Virus record (IMG/VR): IMGVR_UViG_3300042445_003306
Span: 1 to 52,037 of that record
DNA: 52,037 nucleotides
From: a virus
Strand: one strand, 5' to 3'
In this document: positions 11,694 to 48,365 of the stretch, piece after piece
How the letters are laid out: every line of letters starts with the position of its first letter
Position numbering within the stretch: position 1 is the first letter of the stretch
Notes under the pieces: model-generated
What the model was told of the DNA's origin: nothing
The model's input: the letters and a program-made list of their open reading frames with translations, nothing else
Databases searched by the model: none
Translations under genes and position numbers: made by a program

Positions 11694-11722
11694 TTTACAA
11701 ATCTCAATTTTTAGATTATAAT
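11694..11722 (+). promoter_or_regulatory. sigma70-type promoter of the tRNA array
   Basis: TTTACA at 11694-11699, 17-bp spacer, TATAAT at 11717-11722. Followed by a GGCAAC/GTTGCC hairpin (11738-11754) with a T run, which could attenuate, and then the first tRNA at 11917. Confidence 0.75.
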
Positions 11723-11754
11723 AATCGCATAACAAACGGCAACAACAAGTTGCC

Positions 11755-11916: not shown

Positions 11917-11991
11917 CCTCCTGTAGCTCATCGGAAGAGCGGCTTCTTTATAAGGGGCGGGTAGTTGGGTCAGCACCAACCAGGAGGACCA
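11917..11991 (+). tRNA. tRNA-Ile(UAU)
   Basis: Acceptor CCTCCTG/CAGGAGG perfect, D stem GCTC/GAGC, anticodon stem GCTTC/GGGGC (G:U pairs) with loop TTTATAA giving anticodon TAT, T stem GTTGG/CCAAC, encoded CCA. Reads AUA without needing lysidine. Confidence 0.85.
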
Positions 11992-12009
11992 ATTTGCAAA
12001 CGGACTCAC

Positions 12010-12086
12010 GGAAAGTGGCGACGCACATGAGTGATTAAGTTCACGTCTTCGGATCAACATGACAAGTATGCCTGTAGAAGCTTTCC
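12010..12086 (+). ncRNA. tRNA-sized structured element (77 nt)
   Basis: Closed by GGAAAG/CTTTCC; internal GTGA/TCAC and ACTCA/TGAGT pairings compete. Not a canonical tRNA (no T arm, no CCA). Followed by AAATTTT like the tRNAs. Confidence 0.4.
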
Positions 12087-12095
12087 AAATTTTCA

Positions 12096-12172
12096 CGGAT
12101 ATTAGCTCAGCCTGTTAGAGCGCTGCGTTTGGGACGCAGAAGTCGTAGGTTAGAATCCTACATATCCGACCA
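12096..12172 (+). tRNA. tRNA-Pro(UGG)
   Basis: Acceptor CGGATAT/ATATCCG, anticodon stem CTGCG/CGCAG with loop TTTGGGA (anticodon TGG), T arm GTAGG/CCTAC, encoded CCA. Confidence 0.93.
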
Positions 12173-12179
12173 GCTTAAA

Positions 12180-12269
12180 GGAACGGTGGCTGAGTGGTCT
12201 AAAGTACTCCCTTGCTAAGGGAACGTGGCAGCAATGTCACCGTGGGTTCAAATCCCACTCGTTCCGCCA
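12180..12269 (+). tRNA. tRNA-Ser(GCU)
   Basis: Acceptor GGAACGG/TCGTTCC, anticodon loop TTGCTAA (GCT), long variable arm, T arm GTGGG/CCCAC, G discriminator and CCA. A normal class II serine tRNA. Confidence 0.93.
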
Positions 12270-12293
12270 ATCTCAAACCAATATATAAACTAT

Positions 12294-12530
12294 ATGAAAC
12301 AAACATACACACTAGCAAGCAGCGAATTTTGCGGACCATGCAAGATGATTAAGAAGTATCTCGCAGAGAATAGTATCTCCGTGGCTGTGATCAATATGGA
12401 AGATGATCAAAAGTTTTTCATGGAAAACGGTATCAAGACTGTTCCCGTTCTCCTAAGCTCTGATGGCGCCAGATATGCTGGTGTTGATGCCATTCTGGGC
12501 CATTTTTCAGCAAAAGCTGTAACTTGTTGA
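12294..12530 (+). CDS. Thioredoxin/glutaredoxin-like protein (78 aa)
   Basis: Short redoxin: active site SSEFCGPCKMIKKYL (CGPC near residues 14-17) and cis-Pro segment KTVPVL. At 78 aa it is glutaredoxin/NrdC-sized but has the thioredoxin CGPC motif. Probable electron donor to the phage NrdA. The start at 12294 follows the tRNA-Ser directly; earlier in-frame ATGs lie inside the tRNA. Its C-terminus (KAVTC-stop) is made by the GTAACTTGTTGA element of the downstream promoter cassette. Confidence 0.85.
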   Translation: MKQTYTLASSEFCGPCKMIKKYLAENSISVAVINMEDDQKFFMENGIKTVPVLLSSDGARYAGVDAILGHFSAKAVTC

Positions 12531-12602
12531 TTTTCAACGGCTAAAAATAAATGCAAAAACATGCATTTTTTCCTTTACAAAGCCGATTTTTTGTGGTATA
12601 AT
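12516..12602 (+). promoter_or_regulatory. Early promoter cassette (copy 2), drives structured RNA region
   Basis: GTTGATTTTCAAC inverted repeat, ATGCA/TGCAT pair, TTTACA at 12574-12579, 17 bp, TATAAT at 12597-12602, leader GTAAGGCGAAAC. No ORF follows; the transcript runs into the structured RNA/tRNA region. Confidence 0.75.
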
Positions 12603-12616
12603 AATTCTGTAAGGCG

Positions 12617-12696
12617 AAACTAATTCCCCAAACCGAAGCTAAATAAGATCTGGATTTAATAATACTTTCTTGTTTACAAGTTGCAGAAATTAGTTT
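12617..12696 (+). ncRNA. Structured element closed by AAACTAATT/AATTAGTTT (80 nt)
   Basis: 9-bp perfect terminal stem (12617-12625 / 12688-12696), internal CTTG/CAAG hairpin. Not a tRNA. No ORF. Confidence 0.4.
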
Positions 12697-12800
12697 ACAA
12701 TTACAACACGATCAAACTGGTTGAGATTCAAAACCTCGGCTGATGCGATTCCTTCAAGGCAAAGTCTTGATTGTAGCTTGTTCTCCAAATATGATTGTTG

Positions 12801-12898
12801 CTAGGCGAAGGGCTAATAACCCTGCTGAACGGTGAAAATCCGTTCCGTTAATCACTACGCTCTAAATGAGGTTACCGCCTCGGAATGAGAAGCCCTAG
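12801..12898 (+). ncRNA. Structured element with three hairpins (98 nt)
   Basis: Closed by CTAGG/CCTAG. Contains AGGG-CTAATAA-CCCT (7-nt loop), AACGG-TGAAAAT-CCGTT (7-nt loop) and GAGG-TTACCG-CCTC. The hairpins have tRNA-arm dimensions but the order and sequence are not those of a tRNA. 12697-12800 and 12899-12932 show no gene. Confidence 0.4.
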
Positions 12899-12932
12899 TT
12901 AAAATCATTGAGGTCATGTTGAGTGACAATCA

Positions 12933-13007
12933 TGTTTGGACCACAACATTTCTTTGACAACATTTTGATTTTGAAACCCAGGAGCATTCAGTCCCTGGTA
13001 CCAAACA
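12933..13007 (+). ncRNA. tRNA-length element with 7-bp acceptor-like stem (75 nt)
   Basis: TGTTTGG/CCAAACA is a perfect 7-bp terminal stem enclosing exactly 61 nt, as in a tRNA. A CCAGG/CCTGG hairpin sits near the T-arm position, but no anticodon arm with T33 can be drawn and no CCA is encoded. Confidence 0.4.
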
Positions 13008-13112
13008 AGAAGAATGTGATTCCGCTCCTCGCTTTGAGTTGAAGCCGTTCACAAGTAAAACTTCACTGAAAACACTTTTAGGTGCTCATCCAGCTGATCA
13101 AGGCGGTGAGTT

Positions 13113-13202
13113 AAACGTGCGATCAGTACGGCCTTTAAATTTTAATAGCACGTTTGATTATTGCGGCGAGCGACTGCAAGACCAGTGGTCGCAATAATCA
13201 AA
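13113..13202 (+). ncRNA. Two overlapping strong hairpins
   Basis: AAACGTGC (13113-13120) pairs with GCACGTTT (13148-13155). TTTGATTATTGCG (13153-13165) pairs with CGCAATAATCAAA (13190-13202), 13 bp perfect. They share TTT at 13153-13155, so their ends compete. 13008-13112 holds no gene I can see. Confidence 0.45.
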
Positions 13203-13226
13203 AGGAATTAGTGTAATACTTTTAAT

Positions 13227-13301
13227 CGCGGGTTAATCGAGTGGTTCAGATAGGTGTCTCATAAGCATCTCACGGGAGTTCGAATCTTCCACCCGCAACC
13301 A
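13227..13301 (+). tRNA. Initiator-type tRNA-fMet(CAU)
   Basis: Acceptor CGCGGGT/ACCCGCA leaves C1 opposite A72, the hallmark of bacterial initiator tRNA. Discriminator A and CCA are encoded. Anticodon stem GGTGT/GCATC, loop CTCATAA. The anticodon stem lacks the full GGG/CCC triplet, so initiator identity rests on C1:A72. Confidence 0.8.
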
Positions 13302-13306
13302 ATTTT

Positions 13307-13396
13307 GGGACGAAGGCAACTGTTAGATGCGTTGCGGCGGTCTGTAAAACCTCTACTTAAGAAACACCGTGGGTGCAATTCCCTCTCGGCCCACCA
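13307..13396 (+). tRNA. tRNA-Tyr(GUA)-like, with stem mismatches
   Basis: Acceptor GGGACGA/TCGGCCC with one A:G mismatch; D stem GCAAC/GTTGC; anticodon loop CTGTAAA (GTA) on a stem with one C:T mismatch; variable region long as in bacterial Tyr; T stem with one mismatch; CCA encoded. Could be a decaying duplicate of the Tyr tRNA at 13559. Confidence 0.55.
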
Positions 13397-13400
13397 TCCT

Positions 13401-13546
13401 TTATTGTTAAAGCATCTTTGGTTTGATGCTGTCCATATCGAGAACGGACTATGCCGGAGCATACGAACGAAGTACAAGTTCTATGGTGCAAACGGAAAAT
13501 GCGCTCAAAGGCGCGCGAGGTGGTTCAATTCCACAGACAATAAACA
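13401..13546 (+). ncRNA. tRNA-like shell with variable core, copy 1 (146 nt)
   Basis: Terminal stem TATTGTT/GACAATA (one G:U), D-arm-like AGCATC/GATGCT, GCGC/GCGC variable-arm-like hairpin, and a T arm GGTGG-TTCAATT-CCAC, ending AACA instead of a CCA end. The middle (about 13434-13496) has its own hairpins. The ends are nearly identical to the element at 16211-16345 while the core differs. Confidence 0.55.
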
Positions 13547-13558
13547 TTTTTGATTTTT

Positions 13559-13644
13559 GGGTAGGTATACCGTTAAGGAGACGGTTCAGACTGTAAATCT
13601 GACGCCGCAAGGCTCGCTGGGATCGTTCCCCAGACTGCCCACCA
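13559..13644 (+). tRNA. tRNA-Tyr(GUA)
   Basis: Acceptor GGGTAGG/ACTGCCC (last pair mismatched), anticodon CAGA-CTGTAAA-TCTG, variable arm CGCCGCAAGGC, T arm CTGGG/CCCAG, CCA encoded. Confidence 0.8.
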
Positions 13645-13651
13645 ATTTGTA

Positions 13652-13736
13652 TGAACAGCCGCTTTTCGTGTCTAGGGAAAAGCTCCACAATATCAAGGTT
13701 ATGATATGGCGCTGGTGAAATTCCAGAACGGATTCA
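13652..13736 (+). ncRNA. tRNA-like element with 6-nt hairpin loop (85 nt)
   Basis: Imperfect terminal pairing TGAA..CCG / CGG.TTCA; GCTTTTC/GAAAAGC arm; ATATCA-AGGTTA-TGATAT arm (13690-13707); CTGG-TGAAATT-CCAG T-like arm. No CCA. Confidence 0.4.
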
Positions 13737-13744
13737 AATTTTTA

Positions 13745-13819
13745 CCTGATGTAGCTCAGAGGAAGAGCATCCGCTTGATAAGCGGAAGGTCGAGATATCG
13801 TAATTCTCCATCAGGACCA
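13745..13819 (+). tRNA. tRNA-Ile(GAU)
   Basis: Acceptor CCTGATG/CATCAGG perfect, D stem GCTC/GAGC, anticodon TCCGC-TTGATAA-GCGGA (GAT), T stem GAGA/TCTC region, CCA encoded. Confidence 0.92.
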
Positions 13820-13821
13820 AT

Positions 13822-13895
13822 TGAGGATTAGCATAATGGTAATGCATCTGACTTTGACTCAGAACATAGAAGTTCGATTCTTCTATCCTCTACCA
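13822..13895 (+). tRNA. tRNA-Gln(UUG)
   Basis: Acceptor TGAGGAT/ATCCTCT with unpaired U1:U72 (a weak first pair is a glutamine identity feature), D stem GCAT/ATGC, anticodon TCTGA-CTTTGAC-TCAGA (TTG), T arm, CCA. Confidence 0.9.
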
Positions 13896-13900
13896 ATTTA

Positions 13901-13990
13901 TGGGCTGGTATGATCGAGCTGAGCTGATGATTGCATATTGCAATTGTTCTAAGGAACCTTAAGTGAGTTTGAATCTCACACTGTCCACCA
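13901..13990 (+). tRNA. Degenerate class II tRNA-like gene, identity unclear
   Basis: Good T arm GTGAG-TTTGAAT-CTCAC and CCA end, GTTC/GAAC long variable arm, but the acceptor has two mismatches and the anticodon arm (ATTGCATATTGCAAT) has no U33-type loop. Possibly a pseudo-tRNA. Confidence 0.4.
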
Positions 13991-14027
13991 ATTTCAATGA
14001 GAGATTAGAGGTAAGTTGATATACAAC

Positions 14028-14104
14028 ACCTTCTATAGCATTATGGTAATGCGCCGACATGATATGTTGGAGATTCCCGGGTTCAAATCCCGGAGAAGGG
14101 TGCT
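14028..14104 (+). tRNA. tRNA-like gene, possible Ile(GAU)
   Basis: T arm CCGGG-TTCAAAT-CCCGG and anticodon CCGAC-ATGATAT-GTTGG (GAT) are good, D stem GCAT/ATGC. The acceptor ACCTTCT/AGAAGGG has an A:G first pair and no CCA is encoded (GCT instead). Confidence 0.5.
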
Positions 14105-14157
14105 CTAATAAACAACGAGGCGTCAGACCACGCCTACAACATTGAGAAAATTTTAAT

Positions 14158-14232
14158 GGAGGTAAAGCTTTAATGGTGAAGCATCGAGCTTTTAACTCGA
14201 AGAACTGGGATCGTTACCCAGTGCCTCTACCA
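14158..14232 (+). tRNA. tRNA-Lys(UUU)
   Basis: Acceptor GGAGGTA/TGCCTCT with G:U pairs, anticodon TCGAG-CTTTTAA-CTCGA (TTT), T arm CTGGG/CCCAG, CCA. Confidence 0.9.
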
Positions 14233-14239
14233 ATTTCAT

Positions 14240-14314
14240 GGGGTTGTAGCATAACGGTAATGCACCTGCTTTGCAAGTAGTAGATTGTCAGTTCGAATCT
14301 GACTAGCTCCACCA
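14240..14314 (+). tRNA. tRNA-Ala(UGC)
   Basis: Acceptor GGGGTTG/TAGCTCC contains the G3:U70 alanine identity pair; anticodon loop TTTGCAA (TGC); T arm GTCAG/CTGAC; CCA. Confidence 0.88.
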
Positions 14315-14319
14315 ATTTC

Positions 14320-14414
14320 CCTTGGTATCTACCCGCAATTTGGGTATTGCTCACGAGTGTGAAGCAAGTCAGAAGTTAGGCTGGTCGCGACAGTAATCCT
14401 TCTGATGGCCAAGG
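14320..14414 (+). ncRNA. Four-arm structured RNA (95 nt)
   Basis: Terminal stem CCTTGG/CCAAGG; arms TACCC/GGGTA, TTGCTCAC/GTGAAGCAA and TCAGAAG/CTTCTGA. The order mimics a cloverleaf, but with a long third arm and no tRNA consensus bases. It lies between tRNA-Ala and tRNA-Gly. Confidence 0.5.
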
Positions 14415-14422
14415 CTCTTTTC

Positions 14423-14496
14423 GCGGGATTAGTTTAATGGTAAAATGATAGTCTTCCAAACTGAAGTCGAGAGTTCAATTCTCTCATCCCGCACCA
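14423..14496 (+). tRNA. tRNA-Gly(UCC)
   Basis: Acceptor GCGGGAT/ATCCCGC perfect, anticodon loop CTTCCAA (TCC), T arm GAGAG/CTCTC, CCA. Confidence 0.92.
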
Positions 14497-14503
14497 ATCA
14501 CAA

Positions 14504-14575
14504 TGGGCGATCTCTGGCATGGAGGTCTAAAAACCGAAAGGTATCCTCTGGGTTCGATTCCCAGTCGCTCCACCA
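14504..14575 (+). tRNA. Short atypical tRNA-like gene, identity unclear
   Basis: T arm CTGGG-TTCGATT-CCCAG and CCA are good. The acceptor TGGGCGA/TCGCTCC has a U1:C72 mismatch. The D stem is only CTC/GAG and the anticodon region (GGT-CTAAAA-ACC) has a 6-nt loop. 72 nt in total. Confidence 0.5.
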
Positions 14576-14583
14576 ATCATAAC

Positions 14584-14658
14584 GGGCTGTTAGTAGAATG
14601 GATATAACGTTGCGCTACGAACGCAAAGATCTAGGTTCAATTCCTGGGCGGCCTACCA
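14584..14658 (+). tRNA. tRNA-Arg(ACG)
   Basis: Acceptor GGGCTGT/GCGGCCT with G:U pairs, anticodon TTGCG-CTACGAA-CGCAA (ACG), T arm CTAGG/CCTGG, CCA. Anticodon A34 would normally be converted to inosine. Confidence 0.9.
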
Positions 14659-14665
14659 ATTTTCG

Positions 14666-14779
14666 CTAATGTATTCGGGTACGATGCATCGGCAACTCTA
14701 CCAGTGAAGCAAATCATATTTGCGAAGAATTCGTGACCAGTGAAAGTCGGTTTAACGGTAGAGCAATTTTAATACATAG
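14666..14779 (+). ncRNA. Nested structured RNA (114 nt)
   Basis: Outer stem CTAATGTATT/AATACATAG (one bulge) encloses a 68-nt unit closed by the perfect 7-bp stem CTCTACC/GGTAGAG (14696-14763), which holds GCAAAT/ATTTGC and CGAA/TTCG hairpins. Confidence 0.45.
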
Positions 14780-14802
14780 TGTAAAGGCATAAGATATAAA
14801 AA

Positions 14803-14879
14803 GATGCATTAGGGTAATTGGTTATCCCGCCACGCTTTCACCGTGGAGATTACGAGTTCAAATCTCGTATGCATTGCCA
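14803..14879 (+). tRNA. tRNA-Glu(UUC)
   Basis: Acceptor GATGCAT/ATGCATT, anticodon CCACG-CTTTCAC-CGTGG (TTC), T arm ACGAG/CTCGT, G discriminator, CCA. Confidence 0.92.
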
Positions 14880-14886
14880 TTCTTTT

Positions 14887-14961
14887 GGGTCGTTCGTTCA
14901 ACGGATAGGACTGAGGATTTCTACTCCTCCGATGCAGGTTCGATTCCTGCACGACCCACCA
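14887..14961 (+). tRNA. tRNA-Arg(UCU)
   Basis: Acceptor GGGTCGT/ACGACCC perfect, anticodon GAGGA-TTTCTAC-TCCTC (TCT), T arm GCAGG/CCTGC, CCA. Confidence 0.94.
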
Positions 14962-14967
14962 TTTTCT

Positions 14968-15035
14968 GATACTGTGGTGGTATCGCTTACAGGAGTTTTC
15001 GGTCCCTACACTGTGTCTTTGCTACACGGAACCGA
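14968..15035 (+). ncRNA. Structured spacer with two hairpins
   Basis: GATAC-TGTGGTG-GTATC (7-nt loop) then TCGGT/ACCGA enclosing GTGT-CTTTGCT-ACAC. Not a tRNA; sits between tRNA-Arg and tRNA-Asp. Confidence 0.4.
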
Positions 15036-15044
15036 TAAATTTTT

Positions 15045-15121
15045 GAAGATGTAGCTCAGCTGGTTAGAGCACTTGCCTGTCGAGCAAGACGTCGTGGGTT
15101 CGAGCCCCATCATTTTCGCCA
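15045..15121 (+). tRNA. tRNA-Asp(GUC)
   Basis: Acceptor GAAGATG/CATTTTC, D arm with GG, anticodon CTTGC-CTGTCGA-GCAAG (GTC), T arm GTGGG/CCCCA, G discriminator, CCA. Confidence 0.94.
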
Positions 15122-15132
15122 TTCTTTTCATT

Positions 15133-15209
15133 GGCCGTGTAGCCGAATTGGTATAGGCAGCGAACTTAAAATTCGTAATCTGTCGGTTCGAGTCCGACCA
15201 TGGCTACCA
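15133..15209 (+). tRNA. tRNA-Leu(UAA) with short variable loop
   Basis: Acceptor GGCCGTG/CATGGCT, Leu-type D region, anticodon GCGAA-CTTAAAA-TTCGT (TAA), T arm GTCGG/CCGAC, CCA. The variable loop is only about 5 nt, whereas bacterial Leu tRNAs have a long variable arm. Confidence 0.85.
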
Positions 15210-15256
15210 TTTTATAGCTTAAAGGTTAATGCAACAAACTCTGAAATTATGATTTG

Positions 15257-15264
15257 TATAAATA
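15257..15264 (+). promoter_or_regulatory. T4-type late promoter TATAAATA
   Basis: Exact TATAAATA, 5 nt before the ATG at 15270 of the GIY-YIG gene. Confidence 0.7.
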
Positions 15265-15269
15265 CTTTT

Positions 15270-15899
15270 ATGTTATATACAATCTATCAAGTAACCAATT
15301 TGCTTAACAGCAAGATATACATTGGAAAGCATCAGACAACTAATCCTGATGACTCTTATTATGGTTCAGGTGTTGCACTGAAGAAAAGTATTGCTAAACA
15401 TGGTAAAGATAACTTTAAGAAGGCGGTATTATTTGTATTTCAAACCGAAGAGGAAATGAATGCAAAGGAAACAGAATTGATTACTGAAGAATTTGTTGCT
15501 CGTAGCGATACATACAACATGGGAGTGGGTGGTGAAGGCGGCGCTCATTTTAAAGGCAAATCTCATTCGGCTGAAACTGTTGAACGTATCAAACAATCAC
15601 TTGGTTCTGATGAGAATAAACAAAAACTCATTGAAGCTGGACGTAAAGCAGGCTCTTTATCCAAAGGAAGAAAGTTAAGTGCAACTGCTCGACAGAATAT
15701 GTCTGACGCTCAGAGAAAAGCTATCTCCGATGAGACCAAGAAAAAAATTTCAGAATCATTAAAGAAATTTAATGAAGAAAATCCAGGCCACCTCAAAGGT
15801 CTAGTAAAAAGAAAACGCAAACCTTTAAGTGAAGAAACTAAGGAAAAGCTTAGACAAATTCAACTTAAACGTTGGCAAAATAAAAGGCTCGTAGCTTAG
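15270..15899 (+). CDS. GIY-YIG homing endonuclease with NUMOD3 repeats
   Basis: The N-terminal catalytic domain shows YTIYQVTN...KIYIGKH (the GIY and YIG strands as TIY/YIG), SYYGSG and the conserved Glu in NAKETELI. Residues about 90-209 carry NUMOD3-type DNA-binding motifs (KGKSHSAETVERIK, KGRKLSATARQNMS, ISDETKKKISESLK, LSEETKEKLRQIQ). The start at 15270 follows the late promoter; an earlier in-frame ATG at 15249 precedes it. The stop codon lies inside the next tRNA gene (15-nt overlap), as expected for an element that targets tRNA loci. Confidence 0.9.
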   Translation: MLYTIYQVTNLLNSKIYIGKHQTTNPDDSYYGSGVALKKSIAKHGKDNFKKAVLFVFQTEEEMNAKETELITEEFVARSDTYNMGVGGEGGAHFKGKSHSAETVERIKQSLGSDENKQKLIEAGRKAGSLSKGRKLSATARQNMSDAQRKAISDETKKKISESLKKFNEENPGHLKGLVKRKRKPLSEETKEKLRQIQLKRWQNKRLVA

Positions 15900-15962
15900 C
15901 GGTTTTAAAGCGTTCGACTCATAATCGAAGGATCCTCGGTTCGAGTCCGAGCGGGCCCACCA
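15885..15962 (+). tRNA. tRNA-Met(CAU) (elongator or Ile2)
   Basis: Acceptor AGGCTCG/CGGGCCC (six pairs, A1:C72 mismatch), anticodon TTCGA-CTCATAA-TCGAA (CAT), T arm CTCGG/CCGAG, CCA. Its 5' end overlaps the end of the homing endonuclease gene. CAU could also be a lysidine-modified Ile tRNA. Confidence 0.88.
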
Positions 15963-16210
15963 TTTTATATACCGTCTCGCGGCGTCACCGCTAGTGTGTT
16001 CACGAAAGAACGTAACAAAACGGCAAGTTGTTACCCATATGAAAGAAGCTTGTAGCGCAAGTAAAAATCGTAAGCCAAACGTTGAAGTGATGTTCAACAA
16101 AGGGTGCCCCGGCAGTTTGATGCCGTTATCTCGCAATTTGCTGGAGCATGCGTTAAGCATTGCGCAGAAGGCAAATGATGCAATTCGTTGCAGCGAGAAT
16201 CATTTACTTT
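15963..16210 (+). ncRNA. Structured spacer, no gene recognised
   Basis: Hairpins GCGGCG/CACCGC-type, GTTCACGAAAGAAC, GTTGAA/TTCAAC (around 16080-16098) and CGGCA/TGCCG. No tRNA and no convincing ORF; the ORF at 15994-16296 runs through RNA structures and is unlikely to be real. Confidence 0.3.
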
Positions 16211-16345
16211 TATTGTTAAAGCATCTTTGGTTGATGCTGTCTGCCCAGACTATGACAATACACCGAACGCTGATCATGTTCAAGTGTGTAATGTAAAATG
16301 TGCTCATAGGCGCGTGAGGTGGTTCAATTCCACAGACAATAAACA
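16211..16345 (+). ncRNA. tRNA-like shell with variable core, copy 2 (135 nt)
   Basis: Terminal stem TATTGTT/GACAATA, D-like AGCATC/GATGCT, GTGC/GCGC hairpin, T arm GGTGG-TTCAATT-CCAC, ending AACA. About 33 nt at the 5' end and 50 nt at the 3' end match copy 1 (13401-13546) almost exactly; the core 16242-16294 is unrelated to the copy 1 core. Confidence 0.55.
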
Positions 16346-16349
16346 TTTT

Positions 16350-16438
16350 TACAATGGAAATCGGTGAGTTAGGTGCATATTAGGTTATGCATACAGGCTT
16401 GAAATTCCGTGTGGGTCAATATCCATACATTGTAAATA
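16350..16438 (+). ncRNA. tRNA-like element, 7-bp stem, no CCA (89 nt)
   Basis: Perfect TACAATG/CATTGTA terminal stem, arm TGCATA-TTAGGT-TATGCA (16374-16391), T-like arm TGTGG/CCATA. Ends AATA. Starts 4 nt after the preceding element. Confidence 0.45.
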
Positions 16439-16552
16439 TAAAAAGCCATATGAAGGTTACGGGCTTCCTTCTCCAGCTATAAGGATTCATATAGCTAGTG
16501 CCAGTCCTGCATAACGCATTGAGAGTGCATACTCTATGGACAAATTTTCAAT
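16439..16552 (+). other. Spacer with hairpins, no gene
   Basis: Contains AGCTAT/ATAGCT and GGAAG-type pairings; CCATA...TATGG may close it. No ORF or tRNA recognised. Confidence 0.3.
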
Positions 16553-16627
16553 GGCTAGAGGGAATCTGGCGAGTGAATTCATAACGGGGTGCGACTCCCC
16601 GAGATTCCACAAACACTCTAGCCACCA
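16553..16627 (+). ncRNA. 75-nt CCA-ending RNA with nested stems
   Basis: GGCTAGAG/CTCTAGCC then ACCA, exactly tRNA length. A second stem, GGAATCT/AGATTCC (16561-16567 / 16602-16608), starts immediately inside, enclosing CGGGG-TGCGACT-CCCCG. No D or anticodon arm of tRNA type and no T arm at the acceptor. Confidence 0.5.
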
Positions 16628-16631
16628 TTTT

Positions 16632-16721
16632 TGGGTATCACTCCTCTGATAGGGAGAAGAAAAGAACAAGTCCCTGCGCTAGCAATGCAAACCCTAACAC
16701 CTGAATTGACAGGAACCCACC
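16632..16721 (+). ncRNA. Structured element closed by TGGGT/ACCCA
   Basis: Contains CTCC-TCTGATA-GGGAG and CCTG-AATTGA-CAGG hairpins, ends CC followed by a T run. tRNA-like outline but not canonical. Confidence 0.35.
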
Positions 16722-16727
16722 TTTTTT

Positions 16728-16829
16728 AGAAGAGTAACATAACGGCAGTTATGGTTGAGGTTCGAATCCCCATTTGTTGGAAACAACAATCTGGCGACTT
16801 ATATTGGTTCAATTCCAATCTCTTCTGCA
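16728..16829 (+). tRNA. tRNA-Ser(CGA), atypical
   Basis: Acceptor AGAAGAG/CTCTTCT perfect; D arm CATAAC/GTTATG; anticodon TGAGG-TTCGAAT-CCCCA gives CGA; long variable arm TTGTTG-GAAA-CAACAA; T arm ATTGG-TTCAATT-CCAAT; G discriminator. Only CA of the CCA is encoded and there is extra sequence before the T arm. Confidence 0.7.
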
Positions 16830-16834
16830 TTTTT

Positions 16835-16909
16835 AGATATGTAAAGGGAAGGACGTTCAGTTAGTCCTATAGTTTGCAAACTCCCGCAATCAAACTTTAT
16901 GCCATATCT
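16835..16909 (+). ncRNA. tRNA-length element, 7-bp stem (75 nt)
   Basis: Perfect AGATATG/CATATCT terminal stem; AGGAC/GTCCT and AGTTT/AAACT hairpins enclosed by GGGA/TCCC; GCA/TGC arm near the 3' side. No T loop or CCA. Confidence 0.45.
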
Positions 16910-17029
16910 ATTTTTCAATGCAACACGCAACCGTATAGGTTGCTTCGATATAGGAATAGTCATAAAAGCTTAATGACGTACCATATCTGAGAGGTTTTGA
17001 CACCAGTGCTTGCTCCAATTTTAACATCG

Positions 17030-17244
17030 GCGTGGAAAGCAGACACGCAGGAAAATGTGGTTGGTATGAAAGTGCTCTTGGAGATACACCGAGATGAGAG
17101 CATGAGTAGGCCGACCTTGACCGAAGAGAAGAGCCGTGTATGGCGAGTAAACAGAATGCAAACCAACTCCGAATCGAGATTGAGAGGCATGTCCTGTTGG
17201 TAGTAATAACTACGTCTAATCAGAGTAGCGCCTGATATGTTAAA
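17030..17244 (+). ncRNA. Large structured RNA closed by TTTAACAT/ATGTTAAA (215 nt)
   Basis: 8-bp perfect terminal stem. Internal CGTG/CACG and TGCTCT/AGAGCA hairpins and others. No ORF longer than random, no tRNA, and no match to RNase P or 6S RNA that I can recognise. Trailed by CATTTT. Confidence 0.45.
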
Positions 17245-17477
17245 CATTTTCTACTGCTCCAGCAGCGACCGTTCGCTACGGAAACTGTAAAGCATGGCTT
17301 ACAACACTGGAGGAAGGAAGCCACAAAGCACCTGTCTGTTAAATGCGCGGTTCTTCCGCAATAGGGTGTAAAGATGACAGCCGGAAAGACGGCACAACGT
17401 CAGCAGGAAAAGCAGGTTCAATGCCTGTCGCGAATGGCCATAAACCTCAGCGGGCCGGTAGGGATCGGACTGACACC
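17245..17477 (+). other. Structured spacer, no gene
   Basis: CTCCAG/CTGGAG stem near 17258-17316 and a T-arm-like CAGG-TTCAAT-GCCTG hairpin. No gene seen; the ORF at 17343-17546 reads through the RNA structures. Confidence 0.3.
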
Positions 17478-17632
17478 TTTATCTGTCGAGAATATCTACA
17501 CACGGCTGTGAAGACCTATGCTGATGATCCGTCTGAGGCGATGTAAATCGCTACAAAGTGGCCCTTCCATGATTCAGCGAAGATGCTGTATATACGTGAG
17601 GGGTATATGCATATACAGGTCTGACAGATAAA
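17478..17632 (+). ncRNA. Large structured RNA closed by TTTATCTGTC/GACAGATAAA (155 nt)
   Basis: 10-bp perfect terminal stem, internal GCGAT/ATCGC and TGTATAT/ATATACA hairpins, followed by CAATTTTT. Confidence 0.5.
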
Positions 17633-17660
17633 CAATTTTTGCGTCCTATGCGTTTTCTCA

Positions 17661-17742
17661 CCGTTTTTGCGACGATGCAATTGAAGCGCAATGAGCGGAA
17701 AAAACGGATCAGGTTAGAGGTTATCCAGTAAAAACCTCACCA
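17661..17742 (+). ncRNA. Structured element ending in a CCA minihelix
   Basis: CCGTTTTT/AAAAACGG stem (17661-17707) followed by the hairpin GAGGTT/AACCTC (17717-17738) and ACCA. The minihelix plus CCA resembles an acceptor end without the rest of a tRNA. Confidence 0.35.
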
Positions 17743-17747
17743 ATTTT

Positions 17748-17969
17748 ATGACAAACAAACAAGTAACATTATACAAAGGAACTCGTGAAGAGTTTGAAGC
17801 AAAATATGAAGATTACAAACCAGTGGGAAAATCATTCAAAGAACAATTGGATGCTATTCAATCTATTGGAATGGTATTTTATTTTTTAGAAACATCAACT
17901 AAGGATGAAGAAGGTAATTATCTAATAAATCGTTTAGTTGAAAATGATTTCATTATAATCGCATCATAA
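17748..17969 (+). CDS. Small protein within the tRNA array (73 aa)
   Basis: 73-aa ORF with normal phage-like composition (acidic, VTLYKGTREEFEAKYEDYKP), the only non-endonuclease, non-redoxin, soluble ORF inside the array. Starts 5 nt after a CCA end. No domain recognised. Confidence 0.55.
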   Translation: MTNKQVTLYKGTREEFEAKYEDYKPVGKSFKEQLDAIQSIGMVFYFLETSTKDEEGNYLINRLVENDFIIIAS

Positions 17970-17975
17970 ACAATT

Positions 17976-18137
17976 TTGCGGTCATTGAGGGGTATTCGTC
18001 ACTAAGACGTTTGTGCAAGGTAGTCAACATAAAACGCACGATTCAGCGATGAGTTAATGCAGTTGATAGAAATCGAGTCTTTCGAGGCGATTATTCGGTT
18101 GGGAACACATTGCACGATATAGCGACCTGAGCCGCAA
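17976..18137 (+). ncRNA. Large structured RNA closed by TTGCGG/CCGCAA (162 nt)
   Basis: 6-bp GC-rich terminal stem extended by CA/TG across small bulges. No ORF, no tRNA. Confidence 0.4.
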
Positions 18138-18145
18138 ACCCATTT

Positions 18146-18207
18146 CCAATTACCTGACTGCAAGCGGCTATACCTGATAAAGTAGTGCGCAGTAGGTCAG
18201 GAATTGG
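18146..18207 (+). ncRNA. Hairpin RNA CCAATT(A)CCTGAC/GTCAGGAATTGG
   Basis: 12-bp stem with one bulged A enclosing 37 nt. Followed by TCAATTTT, the same trailer as the tRNAs. Confidence 0.45.
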
Positions 18208-18215
18208 TCAATTTT

Positions 18216-18286
18216 ATGAGAGGATCATACGGAGATCGCTAGGCCCATAGTCTAGAGAGGAGGTTAAATTCCTTCCCCTCATAATT
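18216..18286 (+). tRNA. tRNA-like gene with CAU loop, no CCA
   Basis: Acceptor ATGAGAG/CCCTCAT with one mismatch, D stem GATC/GATC, anticodon CTAGG-CCCATAG-TCTAG (CAT but C33 instead of U33), T arm GGAGG-TTAAATT-CCTTC. Possible third CAU tRNA or a pseudogene. Confidence 0.45.
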
Positions 18287-18384
18287 CGTATTCATACGCG
18301 ATAAAGTATGACGCTGCTAAGAGTGTATCCTTAGATAGTCCCAGCCCTGGATGAGTCGTAGGCCGTAATGCTATGGGCACATCA

Positions 18385-18561
18385 TTTTCTATCGTGCGTT
18401 TTGATCGCCCGAAGTATTCGAGGAAAACAGACTGGAAGGTAGTCTATATACACATTGAGTATGTAGGTGTTCGGCGAGACAGTACTTGTAGAAAAGTGAA
18501 GAGGGATCAATGAAAAGTGAGAGTCTGCAAAACGACACCACACCTCTTCAGCGATAGAAAA
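18385..18561 (+). ncRNA. Large structured RNA closed by TTTTCTATCG/CGATAGAAAA (177 nt)
   Basis: 10-bp perfect terminal stem; inside, GTGAAGAGG/CCTCTTCA-type pairing. No ORF or tRNA recognised. 18287-18384 before it holds only a CATAC/GTATG hairpin. Confidence 0.5.
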
Positions 18562-18586
18562 ACTTTCGTATATATAACTATACAAA

Positions 18587-18676
18587 TCCACTGTACCCTA
18601 ATGGCAAGGGACCGCACTGTTAATGCGGCGTATATCCGAGAGGATTATGAAGGTTCGAGTCCTTCTGGTGGAGCCC
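18587..18676 (+). tRNA. tRNA-Asn(GUU) with long variable arm
   Basis: Acceptor TCCACTG/TGGTGGA, D stem CCCT/AGGG, anticodon CCGCA-CTGTTAA-TGCGG (GTT), T arm GAAGG-TTCGAGT-CCTTC, G discriminator followed by CCC. A 20-nt variable arm (ATCC-GAGA-GGAT) makes it class II, unlike any normal Asn tRNA. Confidence 0.75.
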
Positions 18677-18702: not shown

Positions 18703-18777
18703 GGCTCATACGCATAGAAAGCGATGCACCGGATTTGTAACCCGGATAGGAGTGTGCATGTCACTCATGAGCCTCCA
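18703..18777 (+). tRNA. tRNA-Thr(UGU)
   Basis: Acceptor GGCTCAT/ATGAGCC perfect, D stem GCAT/ATGC, anticodon CCGGA-TTTGTAA-CCCGG (TGT; last pair A:C), T arm GAGTG/CACTC, U discriminator, CCA. Confidence 0.87.
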
Positions 18778-19794: not shown

Positions 19795-19870
19795 GGAAGT
19801 TGTCCGGTTGGTCGAGGACACTGTCTTGAAAACGGAAGAGGGCGACGAGCTCTCCGTGGGTTCAAAGGTT
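19795..19870 (+). pseudogene. Truncated tRNA-Ser(UGA)
   Basis: GGAAGTT acceptor 5' strand, D arm GTCC/GGAC, anticodon CTGT-CTTGAAA-ACGG (TGA), variable arm, and T stem 5' strand GTGGG-TTCAAA. The 3' T strand, acceptor strand and CCA are missing, replaced by GGTTCGTTTTG and the late promoter of the HNH gene. Confidence 0.8.
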
Positions 19871-19877
19871 CGTTTTG

Positions 19878-19885
19878 TATAAATA
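19878..19885 (+). promoter_or_regulatory. T4-type late promoter TATAAATA
   Basis: Exact TATAAATA, 5 nt before the ATG at 19891 of the HNH gene. Confidence 0.75.
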
Positions 19886-19890
19886 AACCC

Positions 19891-20736
19891 ATGGACTATA
19901 AGCGAATCTATAATGACCTTATTACATATCGTCAAAATAATGTATTGTCTAATGGTTATATTGAAAAACATCATATAATTCCAAGATCGTTAGGTGGAAG
20001 CAATGATAAAGAAAACATTGTTTCATTAAGCGGGAGAGAACATTATATTGCACATTTATTACTTGCTCGATTTAATCGTTGTAGTAAAACGGCATATGCT
20101 CTTTGGATGATGCAGATGAAAAATTCTAAAGATTGTGATCGCCCTCGTATCAAGAGCGGCAGAATGTATGAATGGATTCGTAAGGAAATCATTAAGTATA
20201 CTTCAAGGAATAATAGGATTACATCTAAAGGCGAACGTAATAGCCAACATGGTACACGTTGGATTTGTAACATCAAATTGCAAGAAAACCGAAAGGTGAG
20301 TAAAGACGAACTTATTCTTGATGGATGGATTCTTGGGCGTAATAAATGGGTTGTCAGTACTTATGTTCCAAAGAAATATATTAACATATGTAATTTAGTT
20401 CTTCAATCAAATTCACGTATTATTTACGGCGAAGATATTCCCGATGGATGGGTAAAAGGAAAAAATAAATGGTTAACCCGTAAAAGAAAAGATACCAAGA
20501 CTAGAGTTAAGAAAACTAGAGCCGAACTTAAATTTTTAAGTGATGAAAAACTCAAAGGATTGGCAAAAACATTATGGGCTGAATTTTTTATTAGTAATCA
20601 TGAGTCTCTTAATTCTTTTGCAAAAGAAAAAGGCTTAATAAGAATGACAATAAAAGGATGGTTTAAAAAGTATATACCTGAGTATCCATCAGATATTACA
20701 ACCAAATCATTAAAGAAACATATAACGGGTACTTAA
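19891..20736 (+). CDS. HNH homing endonuclease in tRNA-Ser(UGA)
   Basis: T4-like HNH core IEKHHIIPRSLGGSNDKENI followed by SGREHYIAHLLLARF (residues about 23-63): HH, N and H catalytic/metal residues are visible. The C-terminal half is basic with repeated WILGRNKW/WVKGKNKW units (residues about 140-200) and a helix-turn-helix-like end, probably DNA binding. The start follows the late promoter; upstream in-frame codons belong to the truncated tRNA. The stop overlaps the next tRNA-Ser by 10 nt. Confidence 0.9.
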   Translation: MDYKRIYNDLITYRQNNVLSNGYIEKHHIIPRSLGGSNDKENIVSLSGREHYIAHLLLARFNRCSKTAYALWMMQMKNSKDCDRPRIKSGRMYEWIRKEIIKYTSRNNRITSKGERNSQHGTRWICNIKLQENRKVSKDELILDGWILGRNKWVVSTYVPKKYINICNLVLQSNSRIIYGEDIPDGWVKGKNKWLTRKRKDTKTRVKKTRAELKFLSDEKLKGLAKTLWAEFFISNHESLNSFAKEKGLIRMTIKGWFKKYIPEYPSDITTKSLKKHITGT

Positions 20737-23274: not shown

Positions 23275-23520
23275 ATGAAAATCAACGCAACTAAAAAGTT
23301 TGAAGCTGAAATAAGTGAAGCTGAAGTAAAGCGCATTGCAGTTCAATGCATACGTGACGCTGTCGGCTGGCATACCGATCACTATGTTGAGAACGGCAAA
23401 CTTTACATTAGCAAAACCATGAATACCTCTCACCGTTGGACCGAAGAAATTGTGGTTGGTGAAGCTTCGCCCACCGACATTGCAGCTCAACACGTTATCA
23501 ATCAAATTTTAAAATCTTAG
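23275..23520 (+). CDS. Hypothetical protein (81 aa) directly upstream of tmRNA
   Basis: MKINATKKFEAEISEAEVKR... small alpha/beta protein without recognised domain. The ATG lies 9 nt after the -10, so it has a short or no leader. Its stop codon ends at the first base of the tmRNA acceptor. Not SmpB by length or motif. Confidence 0.6.
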   Translation: MKINATKKFEAEISEAEVKRIAVQCIRDAVGWHTDHYVENGKLYISKTMNTSHRWTEEIVVGEASPTDIAAQHVINQILKS

Positions 23521-23842
23521 TGCCTGTTCCGGTTTCGACATGATTCACAGGCGCTGCTTGCAACCAAAAGTCTGCTCGACTCTAAGAGCACAAAGACAAA
23601 AGGCGAAAACACACTCGCATTAGCTGCGTAAGCTACGTCACTTCACAGACTCCTCTATGTGAATGTGGCGACGACAGAGGATAGCTTGAGTGTGCAAATA
23701 CACTCTAGATTGAAGCATTCAAATATGTTTCCCAGATTCTTGGATTGAATATAATCAGGCACCGATGAAAAATGTGTTCTATAGTTGTAGAAGAGTAGCG
23801 TTAATGTTTCGTGGACGGGGTTCGACTCCCCCAGGTACACCA
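23520..23842 (+). ncRNA. ssrA: Phage-encoded transfer-messenger RNA (tmRNA)
   Basis: tRNA-like ends: 5' GTGCCTG pairs with 3' CAGGTAC (7 bp), the 5' segment TTCCGGTTTCGACATG is a classic tmRNA start, and the 3' T arm GACGG-GGTTCGACTCCCCC leads to A-CCA. The tag frame at about 23599-23631 reads K-GENTLALAA-stop, with the usual ALAA degradation end. Length (323 nt) is shorter than the ~360 nt of typical bacterial tmRNA. No smpB gene is visible here, so host SmpB is presumably used. Confidence 0.93.
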
Positions 23843-26975: not shown

Positions 26976-27269
26976 ATGAGTTTAGAAAAAGCAATCATTC
27001 ACCGGAAAGAAAATCGCAAACCATATCGCGGCAGCAAGGCATTTGATTGCTCTTGCCGCAACCACGGCAGCTGCGCCTATTGCGAAAGCAATCGTACGCT
27101 CTTCGACAAGAAAGCTCGGATGCGGGTCGAGGGTCAAGTGGATGAATGGTTTGGTTATTGGAACCTTCCAGACCCGTACGATGCCTCGAGCGATGCATAC
27201 GATGAGCGTCTCAAGCAAATTGACGTTGACCCTTGGGACTTTGAGACACGTCGAGAATTAGATATCTAA
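26976..27269 (+). CDS. Conserved phage protein with Cys-rich motif (97 aa)
   Basis: The pattern RKENRKPYRGSKAFDCSCRN followed by HGSCAYCESNRTL is a recurrent small-protein family in phages (from memory of family appearance), with four Cys that could bind zinc. The acidic C-terminus (VDPWDFETRRELDI) looks flexible. Function unknown. Confidence 0.7.
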   Translation: MSLEKAIIHRKENRKPYRGSKAFDCSCRNHGSCAYCESNRTLFDKKARMRVEGQVDEWFGYWNLPDPYDASSDAYDERLKQIDVDPWDFETRRELDI

Positions 27270-27288
27270 ACACAAATAAAATAAGCAT

Positions 27289-27681
27289 ATGAAACCACAA
27301 TACATTGAAATTGATGAAGGCGGCAAAAAGCGTTACTACTCTGACCGACATATGACTATTGCACATCGACTAGATGGGCCAGCAGTTGAATATGCTGATG
27401 GAAGTAAAGAGTGGTTTGTTAATGGTAAGCTTCATCGTACTGATGGTCCAGCAATTGAATGGGCTGATGGAGGTAGAGCATGGTGGCTAGATGGTAAGCT
27501 TCATCGTCTTGATGGTCCAGCAGTTGAATATGCTAATGGAAGTAAAGCATGGTATGTTGATGGTAAACGTCTCACTGAAGAACAATTCAATGCTCTCACA
27601 GCACCAACACTAGAGTTGACACTTGAAGACATTGCTGCTAAGTTTGGTGTTGATGTTGGTAAGATCAAGATTGTAAAGTGA
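27289..27681 (+). CDS. DGPA-repeat protein A (130 aa)
   Basis: Three to four tandem ~22-residue units of the form H-R-x-DGPA-x-E-x-A-(D/N)-G-x-x-x-W-(Y/F)-(V/L)-(D/N)-G-K, a beta-hairpin repeat related in style to MORN/toxin-associated repeats. The C-terminal tail LTLEDIAAKFGVDVGKIKIV is shared verbatim with the proteins at 36130 and nearly so at 36730. Function unknown; the repeat suggests a binding surface. Confidence 0.7.
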   Translation: MKPQYIEIDEGGKKRYYSDRHMTIAHRLDGPAVEYADGSKEWFVNGKLHRTDGPAIEWADGGRAWWLDGKLHRLDGPAVEYANGSKAWYVDGKRLTEEQFNALTAPTLELTLEDIAAKFGVDVGKIKIVK

Positions 27682-27693
27682 CAGGAACAATAA

Positions 27694-27699
27694 TATAAT
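27694..27699 (+). promoter_or_regulatory. Compact GGAAC-TATAAT promoter, leaderless
   Basis: GGAAC 6 nt upstream of TATAAT; the ATG at 27706 starts 6 nt after the -10. Same arrangement at 36118 and 36463. Confidence 0.6.
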
Positions 27700-27705
27700 A
27701 AAAGT

Positions 27706-28140
27706 ATGCAAGAACAATACATCGAGACATTAAAGAACGGTACAAAGAAGTACTACAAAGACAAAGCTAAGACAATTCTTCACCGTGAAGACGGTCCAGC
27801 AATTGAATATGCTGATGGAGGTAAAGAATGGCTAGTTGATGGTAAGTATCATCGGCTTGATGGTCCAGCAATTGAAAGCGCTAATGGTAAAGAAGCATGG
27901 TGCATCAACGGAGAATCTATTTCTGAGGATGAGTTCTTCAAGCGTACCGATTGGCGTGAAGACCAACACATTGTAGATCTTCAATACCTGCGTAATTTAC
28001 TCTCCATTGGCACAGTTGACACAGCTGACACAGCTAGCGAACTTCTCAAGACAAGCCTCATCAAGATGGCCCTAGACAGTGTCAATGAAATGCATCGCGT
28101 CGCGATGGAGGAGAAGAGGGCTAACGGATTTGTTGGATAA
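27706..28140 (+). CDS. DGPA-repeat protein B (144 aa)
   Basis: The N-terminal half (residues 1-75) has two DGPA units (HREDGPAIEYADG, HRLDGPAIESANG); the C-terminal half is an unrelated helical domain (LLKTSLIKMALDSVNEMHR). The start sits right behind a leaderless promoter. Confidence 0.7.
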   Translation: MQEQYIETLKNGTKKYYKDKAKTILHREDGPAIEYADGGKEWLVDGKYHRLDGPAIESANGKEAWCINGESISEDEFFKRTDWREDQHIVDLQYLRNLLSIGTVDTADTASELLKTSLIKMALDSVNEMHRVAMEEKRANGFVG

Positions 28141-35424: not shown

Positions 35425-36117
35425 ATGAAAACTAAAACCGTGAAAGAACTAAAAGAAAAAATCGAAGCAGAAGTCAAAGAAGATTTCGACTTTGAGCAAC
35501 ATCTGTTTAAAAAGTATCCGAGTCTTTTTTATACAGGAGAAGACGGCGAACTACTACCACAGTTTCAAAGATGCTGGAATGATTGCCCTAAAGGTTGGGA
35601 GACTCTCGTAGACAATCTTTGTGGAGCAATTGTAGACTATACCAAAAATACTTCTCGTTCGATTCCTAATCCAAATAAGAAAACTATGCGCTTTTTCCAA
35701 AAAGCTTGGACACCTATTCGGATAAAAATTGATCAATGGTTTAACCCATATAAAAACTGTAAAATTGCTTTTACTTTGGAACAAAAACAAAAACTTAAAA
35801 ATTCATTTGCTAGTAAAGTAAGAGCTGCAACCAGTAAGATTAGTCAATACTTTTACAATAAAGAGCTTTATGTCTATCAGAAACCACCAGCAGTAAAGGT
35901 TGACCAATATAAAGAAAAGTTTGGCACACTGAGATTTTATATTGATGGGGGTGATGAAACTGTTGAAGGTATGATTCGATTTGCGGAATATCTTAGTGGA
36001 AAGACCTGTCAGGAGACGGGTGAAGCAGGATCTACTGTTAGCAAAGGTGGCTGGTGGGCAACACTATCACCGAAAGTAGCCAAGCGATTGGGTTACTCTT
36101 CAAAGAAGGAACAATAA
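35425..36117 (+). CDS. Conserved hypothetical protein with KEKFGTLRFY motif (230 aa)
   Basis: The segment VDQYKEKFGTLRFYIDGGDE followed by a Cys-containing SGKTCQETGEAG region matches a hypothetical family seen in phages and bacteria (KFGxLRFY). N-terminal half helical and basic. The start at 35425 is favoured over 35407, which overlaps the previous gene. Function unknown. Confidence 0.65.
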   Translation: MKTKTVKELKEKIEAEVKEDFDFEQHLFKKYPSLFYTGEDGELLPQFQRCWNDCPKGWETLVDNLCGAIVDYTKNTSRSIPNPNKKTMRFFQKAWTPIRIKIDQWFNPYKNCKIAFTLEQKQKLKNSFASKVRAATSKISQYFYNKELYVYQKPPAVKVDQYKEKFGTLRFYIDGGDETVEGMIRFAEYLSGKTCQETGEAGSTVSKGGWWATLSPKVAKRLGYSSKKEQ

Positions 36118-36123
36118 TATAAT
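36118..36123 (+). promoter_or_regulatory. Compact GGAAC-TATAAT promoter
   Basis: AAGGAACAATAA then TATAAT (36118-36123), ATG at 36130. Sequence almost identical to the 27694 promoter. Confidence 0.6.
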
Positions 36124-36129
36124 AAAAGT

Positions 36130-36450
36130 ATGCAAGAACAATACATTCACATTGGCAAATATGGTAGTAAGATTTTCTACAAAGACCGAGAAATGAAAAT
36201 ATGTCATCGTCTTGATGGTCCAGCAGTTGAAGATGGTGATGGATATAAAGCTTGGTATGTTGATGGTAAACTTCATCGTCTTGATGGTCCAGCAATTGAA
36301 TGGGCTGATGGAAGTAAAGCATGGTATGTTGATGGTAAACTTCTATCAGAAGAAGCATTCAATGCTCTTACCAAGCCAATTGAGTTGACACTTGAAGACA
36401 TTGCTGCTAAGTTTGGTGTTGATGTTGGTAAGATCAAGATTGTAAAGTGA
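36130..36450 (+). CDS. DGPA-repeat protein C (106 aa)
   Basis: Two to three units (HRLDGPAVEDGDG, HRLDGPAIEWADG, AWYVDGK) and the tail LTLEDIAAKFGVDVGKIKIV identical to protein A at 27289. The N-terminus MQEQYI is shared with protein B. A recombinant-looking paralog. Confidence 0.7.
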   Translation: MQEQYIHIGKYGSKIFYKDREMKICHRLDGPAVEDGDGYKAWYVDGKLHRLDGPAIEWADGSKAWYVDGKLLSEEAFNALTKPIELTLEDIAAKFGVDVGKIKIVK

Positions 36451-36462
36451 CAGGAACAATAA

Positions 36463-36468
36463 TATAAT
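36463..36468 (+). promoter_or_regulatory. Compact GGAAC-TATAAT promoter
   Basis: CAGGAACAATAA then TATAAT (36463-36468), ATG at 36475. Confidence 0.6.
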
Positions 36469-36474
36469 AATAGT

Positions 36475-36711
36475 ATGCTGAACAACACTATGAAAACCAA
36501 AATCTTTGACACTCTCATCTTGATCTCGATGATCATCCTCTTCGCCCTCGCTCATGTCTCACCACTGGTCGGCATCATCATGATGTCACTAGCAGGTAAT
36601 ATGGTGTATCAAATCCTAGGAGCGATCTTACAAGTAGTATCTATTGCTGGACTTGTATACATTCATTACTGGAACGGCACATTCCGCTCCGATAAGAAAG
36701 ACCTCGACTAA
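36475..36711 (+). CDS. Two-helix membrane protein (78 aa)
   Basis: Hydrophobic segments TLILISMIILFALAHVSPLV and GAILQVVSIAGLVYIHYW, basic tail. Either ATG (36475 or 36490) could be used; the promoter favours the first. Confidence 0.6.
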   Translation: MLNNTMKTKIFDTLILISMIILFALAHVSPLVGIIMMSLAGNMVYQILGAILQVVSIAGLVYIHYWNGTFRSDKKDLD

Positions 36712-48364: not shown

Positions 48365-48365
48365 A

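Follow-up and report, generated by a model that had tools for sequence, protein, structure and literature searches.

In bacteriophage T4, the tRNA cluster, which also holds the GIY-YIG gene segB, encodes two RNAs that are not tRNAs, RNAC (species 1 RNA, 139 nt) and RNAD (species 2 RNA, 119 nt). Both are classed as late RNAs and have been validated by Northern blot (PMC9697503). Their roles are unknown (PMC3014915), and a homologue of rnaD showed convergent mutation during adaptation to one host (PMC12685909). The tRNA array considered here belongs to the virus record IMGVR_UViG_3300042445_003306, whose 52,037 bases, hereafter the window, are the entire IMG/VR record and probably a piece of a larger phage. 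In this array, ARAGORN finds 23 tRNAs between 11917 and 21032, all on the + strand, and about 25 structured elements are interspersed with them on the same strand. Some 18 families of these elements are common to related contigs, and about 64% of the 4,072 nt lying outside tRNAs and open reading frames (ORFs) corresponds, by summed element coordinates, to elements with homologues in other contigs. As in T4, non-tRNA elements lie among phage tRNA genes and on their strand, and the cluster also contains a GIY-YIG gene (15249-15899; PF01541, SegE-like, phrog_314). Furthermore, as read from its fold, RNAC has a T-arm at its end but lacks an anticodon arm, like elements b, g, and k3 of the array. 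On the other hand, T4 has two such RNAs and the array about 25, and the T4 RNAs have been detected whereas those of the array are predicted from sequence. Small RNAs in phage tRNA clusters are of a kind already known from T4; the number, the diversity, and the cassette exchange of the present ones appear to be new. No description of such arrays was found in the literature searched, which omits most subscription journals.

Other RNAs may be compared with these elements. The bacterial Y RNA YrlA, which contains a tRNA-like domain, may according to one proposal inhibit an anticodon nuclease competitively (PMC7790460). It resembles the elements in being non-coding and partly tRNA-like; however, YrlA is not found in a tRNA array, no Y RNA model of Rfam 15 matches the window at E≤5, and among the window ORFs searched none was seen to encode a Ro/Rsr protein. 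Likeness to tmRNA (RF00023) resides in an acceptor and a T-arm with no anticodon arm, but the best element (14505-14575) scores 14.9 bits against a cutoff of 47, and no tag reading frame was noticed. A true tmRNA is located elsewhere in the window, at 23520-23842. GOLLD and ROOL are large ornate RNAs of phages and prophages, structured, non-coding, multimeric, and several hundred nucleotides long; neither has an Rfam match in the window. More generally, only tRNA and tmRNA match at the gathering thresholds of Rfam 15, no other credible family appears at E≤5, and the cutoff of the tRNA model RF00005 is passed by tRNA genes only and by no noncanonical element. As compared to canonical phage tRNAs, the elements share array, strand, and trailer, and some have a T-arm and CCA, but they lie below the tRNA cutoff and lack a 7-nt anticodon loop with U33. 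No common end motif of the integron attC type was noticed among the elements, no dedicated search having been made.

The elements are almost certainly genuine genes for structured RNAs. Homologues were obtained from the array regions of 16 stretches of related records and from pattern scans of IMG/VR; L-numbers (L007, L008, L038, L041, and so on) designate related loci and W the window. Most window elements recur in these loci, and compensatory changes between homologues are present in several families (h, f, a, and others). The structures of h and f were named after the sequences had been seen, and those of a and of the exploratory families come from RNAalifold, so that the percentages of pairing that follow lean towards the chosen structures. 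For family h (16348-16436), 18 distinct sequences give 97.7% of cells paired over 21 pairs, 12 of which (37 cells) show changes on both sides. Not one of 500 shuffles was as high on four of the five measures, and slid-partner controls gave 24-57% paired and at most 4 both-sided pairs. With family a (12010-12086; 13 distinct sequences), 97.3% of cells are paired over 26 pairs and 14 pairs (45 cells) changed on both sides, to be compared with at most 51% and at most 3 pairs in the slid-partner controls; the corresponding model, R2, yielded 19 strong matches across 62 sources, window included. Family f (14967-15035), made of two hairpins and a conserved linker, shows 93.3% pairing in 10 sequences and both-sided change in 10 of 17 pairs (31 cells), a number of changed pairs also reached by 10 of 500 shuffles. 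In f, as in h and a, the signal is lost when the pairing partners are slid. Exploratory counts of both-sided pairs were 16 for m (17024-17236; 4 sequences), 11 for n (17478-17632; 10 sequences, 99.1% paired, 11-bp closing stem), 6 for p2 (18284-18384; 24 sequences), 6 for e (14663-14763; 5 sequences), 5 for b (13902-13990; 4 sequences), and 4 for g. The core of n was recovered in 12 IMG/VR contigs by pattern scan. A hammerhead-like CUGAUGA in n was discarded, as homologues do not keep the motif.

One-sided departures from pairing also designate the tRNA-sense strand as the RNA, since G-U exceeds A-C by 155 to 12, although energy-derived structures favor G-U and part of this asymmetry could be a selection artefact. 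In addition, the junction loops of h, f, and p are almost invariant. For h, a, and f the evidence for RNA genes is strong, and for n, m, b, e, g, p, and p2 it is good; it is weak for e2, e5c, k2, k4, m2, x, and y, where it derives almost entirely from predicted folds.

The link with tRNAs extends beyond the window. Pattern scans found h in 32, f in 25, and p (18216-18282) in 33 IMG/VR contigs. The tRNAs within 5 kb of these matches, 757 in all, share the strand of the match without exception; in this tally a tRNA close to more than one site is counted repeatedly, and seven tRNA-free h matches, one f match, and one p match are left out. In these seven of the 32 matches of the 17-nt h pattern, no tRNA occurs within 5 kb and the rest of the motif is absent; they were treated as chance. 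The tRNAs flanking h, f, and p differ from contig to contig. With model R1, h was found once per record in 13 of 20 records, and the 462-kb huge phage LR756500 gave no match. Pattern p was absent from the collection of genome contigs scanned, and when the array was compared at the nucleotide level with 50,697 phage records, the matches listed were only tRNAs and homing endonucleases. The units behave as cassettes, since similarity breakpoints fall at element boundaries. Between the window and L008, entire units have been gained or lost between ACCA-ATTT repeats; the cassette at 14505-14575 (element tl), for instance, is missing as a whole from L008. In the L038 array, matching units are 88-98% identical to those of the window while the UvdE of that contig is only 58% identical, which suggests either cassette exchange or strong constraint.

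A preliminary description of the region, made from the sequence of the window, had presented the intervals between tRNAs as mostly closed by terminal stems and often followed by T-rich trailers. Such stems were located at 12010-12086, 12617-12696, 12933-13007, 14320-14414, 16348-16436 (h), and 16834-16910, and ATTTT or AATTT does follow many elements as it follows the tRNAs. The stem at 12617-12696 is present in the window but poorly kept in L008, so that the corresponding element e2, with its 9-bp closing stem, is a weak candidate. As sole evidence, terminal stems were rejected as too weak, counts being barely above those of shuffles: 32 windows of 60-100 nt are closed by at least 7 bp when no trailer is required, versus 22.9±4.4 after shuffling. 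The excess over shuffles holds once a T-run is required: windows of 60-180 nt then number 17 for closing stems of 7 bp or more (8.1±2.5 in shuffles) and 10 for stems of 8 bp or more (2.2±1.4, maximum 5 in 60 shuffles). What had been called spacers are mostly discrete elements, but three are tRNAs. The first, tRNA-Tyr(GTA) at 13558-13644, was missed here by both ARAGORN and Rfam and is 87% identical to an L041 copy called Tyr(gta) by ARAGORN. The second, tRNA-Thr(TGT) at 18703-18774, was missed by ARAGORN and passes the Rfam tRNA cutoff (36.5 bits). The third, a Thr(TGT)-like gene at 13307-13397 also missed by ARAGORN, has a T-arm, CCA, and a TGT loop by eye, stays below that cutoff (25.2 bits), and reads as a degenerate tRNA. 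Nor are all elements tRNA-sized, m reaching 213 nt, n 155 nt, and o (17975-18215; 10 aligned sequences) about 240 nt. The idea of a distinct class of RNAs is supported, but as about 18 shared families of differing architecture rather than as one class.

The anatomy of the elements was read by eye from sequence and predicted folds. Contrary to the initial claim that T-loops are lacking, six elements possess a canonical T-arm, at 13520 (g, copy 1), 13963 (b), 14548 (tl), 16319 (g, copy 2), 16585 (k), and 16803 (k3); shuffled spacers contain 0.04 on average and the minus strand none. In the fold of g, an acceptor-like stem, a D-like arm, and the T-arm surround about 90 nt standing in place of the anticodon arm; the two window copies (13400-13545 and 16209-16344) are 78% identical and others occur in L038, L087, and L112. 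Elements b and tl both have an acceptor, a T-arm, and ACCA, tl having in addition a D-arm and a GAAA hairpin in the position of the anticodon arm. All copies of b appear to have a G3-U70 pair, which specifies alanine identity, and charging of b by alanyl-tRNA synthetase is conceivable. In k (16552-16628; 4 sequences), an acceptor/T-arm minihelix would be nested in a second stem that ends, like b and tl, in ACCA. Element k3 (16727-16830) combines an acceptor and a T-arm with extra hairpins and has a sub-threshold match to tRNA-Sec (21.6 bits). Element h is a predicted three-way junction in which the 3′ hairpin adjoins the closing stem directly, with no linker, an arrangement resembling that of T-arm and acceptor in tRNA. 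Finally, p reads as a compact 67-nt four-arm cloverleaf that lacks CCA; its T-like loop has 7 nt (TTAAATT in the window copy), and its mean column identity is 95%. It may also be read as a tRNA with a CAU anticodon and C33. The claimed absence of U33 anticodon loops holds by inspection, the possible 7-nt loop of p carrying C33. No tRNA architecture was discerned in a, f, n, m, and o. The suggestion that these RNAs mimic tRNAs fits a subset (the six T-armed elements, perhaps p and h) but not the remaining elements. Overall, the preliminary observation is partly confirmed and its interpretation partly supported.

Considering these features, it may be proposed that the tRNA intervals are genes for small structured RNAs that would be excised, stable, and trans-acting, the T-armed subset being protein-binding. 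This explanation is favored over the alternatives given below, with about an even chance of being right as a whole. Elements carried as cassettes in the array would be transcribed with the tRNAs, from the same strand and shared promoters. In this respect, a promoter-like motif, TTTACA-N-TATAATAAT, occurs at 11 near-identical sites over window positions 7944-50751, where 0.01 would be expected, and is likely to represent a phage promoter class; one site lies upstream of the array (11694-11725, +) and a second within it (12574-12605, +; identical in L008). The tRNA-maturation enzymes, together with cleavage in the A/U-rich trailers, would then free the elements from the common precursor. Because of the shared strand, trailers, and promoters and of the T4 precedent, such excision is rather probable. 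Freed elements would accumulate as stable trans-acting RNAs, like RNAC and RNAD. The T-armed elements that have no ordinary anticodon arm (g, b, tl, k, and k3, to which p and h may be added) would bind host or phage proteins recognizing the acceptor and T-arm, and tRNA-handling proteins so bound would be diverted or occupied during infection, with whatever benefit this might bring. Protein binding is a tentative proposal, the decoy role being suggested by analogy, including with the suggestion made for YrlA (PMC7790460). An RNA-ligase-like protein (48243-49364; PF09414, PHA02142 OB-fold), possibly a tRNA-repair enzyme, is encoded in the window; it would suit a phage facing tRNA damage and was counted in favor of the proposal.

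Several points weigh against this scheme. The support, which bears on structure, covariation, strand, cassette behavior, and association with tRNA arrays, comes from sequence and predicted folds. An nhmmer search with RNAC and RNAD gave no match at E≤10 in the window and all loci. One mechanism for all elements is unlikely because a, f, n, m, and o do not resemble tRNA. About seven elements (e2, e5c, k2, k4, m2, x, y) are proposed from folding alone or nearly so, and the protein partner of the T-armed elements is putative.

It may alternatively be imagined that the families act separately from one another, in regulation or catalysis (as antisense RNA, ligand-binding RNA, guide, or ribozyme) and without relation to tRNA handling, the array being a mere site of expression. 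The diverse architectures, the long invariant loops of h, n, m, and o, and the single copy of h would agree with this view. However, the strict one-strand co-location with tRNAs, together with the tRNA-like architecture of several elements, points to a connection with tRNAs in part of the set at least, and this explanation is a rather doubtful one. A more ambitious form of the decoy proposal, which we hold to be unlikely, would make the array an RNA toolbox, a modular set of some 25 different non-coding RNAs that large phages exchange as cassettes, each fold, tRNA-like or not, occupying a different host protein; a tRNA-cutting defense nuclease, a synthetase, RNase P, or a ribosome factor may be envisaged.

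The preliminary description had also considered processing spacers. In this case, the elements would separate or insulate tRNAs, offer cleavage sites to RNase P and RNase E, and have no function once released. T-rich trailers after both tRNAs and elements, stem-closed units placed between tRNAs, and T-armed units that would be natural RNase P substrates are in keeping with such a role. Yet the near-invariant junction loops of h, f, and p exceed the needs of a spacer, as does, by far, the size of the elements of 155-240 nt, and one family adjoins different tRNAs, cassettes keeping their own sequence whatever flanks them. Moreover, many tRNA pairs in the same array are separated by gaps of 2-8 nt without any element. 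Because of this conservation and of these element-free gaps, spacing as a sole role is improbable.

Decayed tRNAs were another early proposal; the elements would then be decayed or chimeric remnants of recombination between tRNA genes. T-arms and CCA in some elements, the three tRNAs among the supposed spacers, and the recombination visible at T-arm/ACCA-ATTT repeats recall such an origin. However, helices are maintained by compensatory changes, families persist in many contigs, and most families have no tRNA feature at all. Covarying helices and invariant loops kept across contigs whose UvdE is about 58% identical make general decay highly improbable; it is strongly disfavored for a, f, h, and n, and may apply to individual elements, for example k3 or the Thr-like gene at 13307. 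As for hairpins acting as single-stranded DNA, in the form of recombination sites or homing-endonuclease targets, the two homing endonucleases of the array (15249-15899 and about 19825-20736) and the clear cassette exchange recall them, but the G-U:A-C ratio of 155:12 (part of which may come from structures chosen by RNA energy) and the fixed orientation with tRNAs point to RNA, and the families do not have the shared sequence that would be expected of a common site, so that this idea is hardly credible.

Large phages are often characterized by their tRNA count, and the sequence between tRNAs usually goes unannotated. The array greatly extends the puzzle posed by RNAC and RNAD. None of its homologue-bearing elements has an Rfam family. 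The 18 or so shared families, several with covariation-supported models, open a comparative approach to the function of RNAC/RNAD-type RNAs, provide markers searchable with covariance models, and are candidates for RNA-based phage counter-defense. If the toolbox idea were true, the array would be an RNA counterpart of phage anti-defense gene islands.

The remaining elements, all on the + strand, may be described in order. In the first part of the array, after e2, come e3 (12709-12776), near-identical in L008 and without covariation signal, and e4 (12792-12933; about 140 nt), whose closing stem shows a U-A to C-G change in L008. Element e5 (12933-13009) has a predicted 7-bp closing stem and is near-identical in L008, and at the place of the predicted long hairpin e5c (13153-13208) L008 has a different stem-closed sequence. 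Element x (13653-13737) is a predicted fold with one homologous locus, as are y (15968-16205) and n2 (17640-17745). A conserved short hairpin, c (14102-14154), has copies in L040 and L042 with 82-86% identity, and d (14320-14414), a predicted four-way junction with a folding energy of −37.4 kcal/mol, is identical in L007 and L008. Further downstream, i and s (16440-16545) are found in 12 and 11 loci, respectively; p2 is a relative of s, copies of which recur inside L071 and inside L072. Both k2 (16632-16722) and k4 (16834-16910; 8-bp closing stem) are proposed from a fold and a T-run. Element l (16920-17018) is 93% identical to its L038 copy. Stretch m2 (17240-17476), proposed from its fold, is without homologue among the loci compared. 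Elements q (18384-18440; 10 aligned sequences) and r (18468-18580; 14 sequences, 3 both-sided pairs) precede tRNA-Thr(TGT).

The window proteins include a ribonucleotide reductase, UvdE, PhoH, a Thy1-like protein, the RNA-ligase-like protein, and a helicase whose nearest named relative, at 33% identity, is in the uncultured phage LR756500. No group I intron (RF00028) matches in the window; two such introns, together with an abiF RNA, occur in the related array L041 (10191-10379, 4937-5131, and 13297-13333, all on the − strand). Among related loci, tRNA matches at L034 8074-8132, L038 11829-11885, and L041 10059-10115 cover model positions 8-63 only, without acceptor-stem match, and L040 (12107-12181) and L042 (11559-11633) have a tRNA with a CTA anticodon, a possible UAG suppressor. 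Finally, a repeated DNA family occupies two distant stretches of the window, 27269-27901 and 36107-36488, with 74-87% identity.

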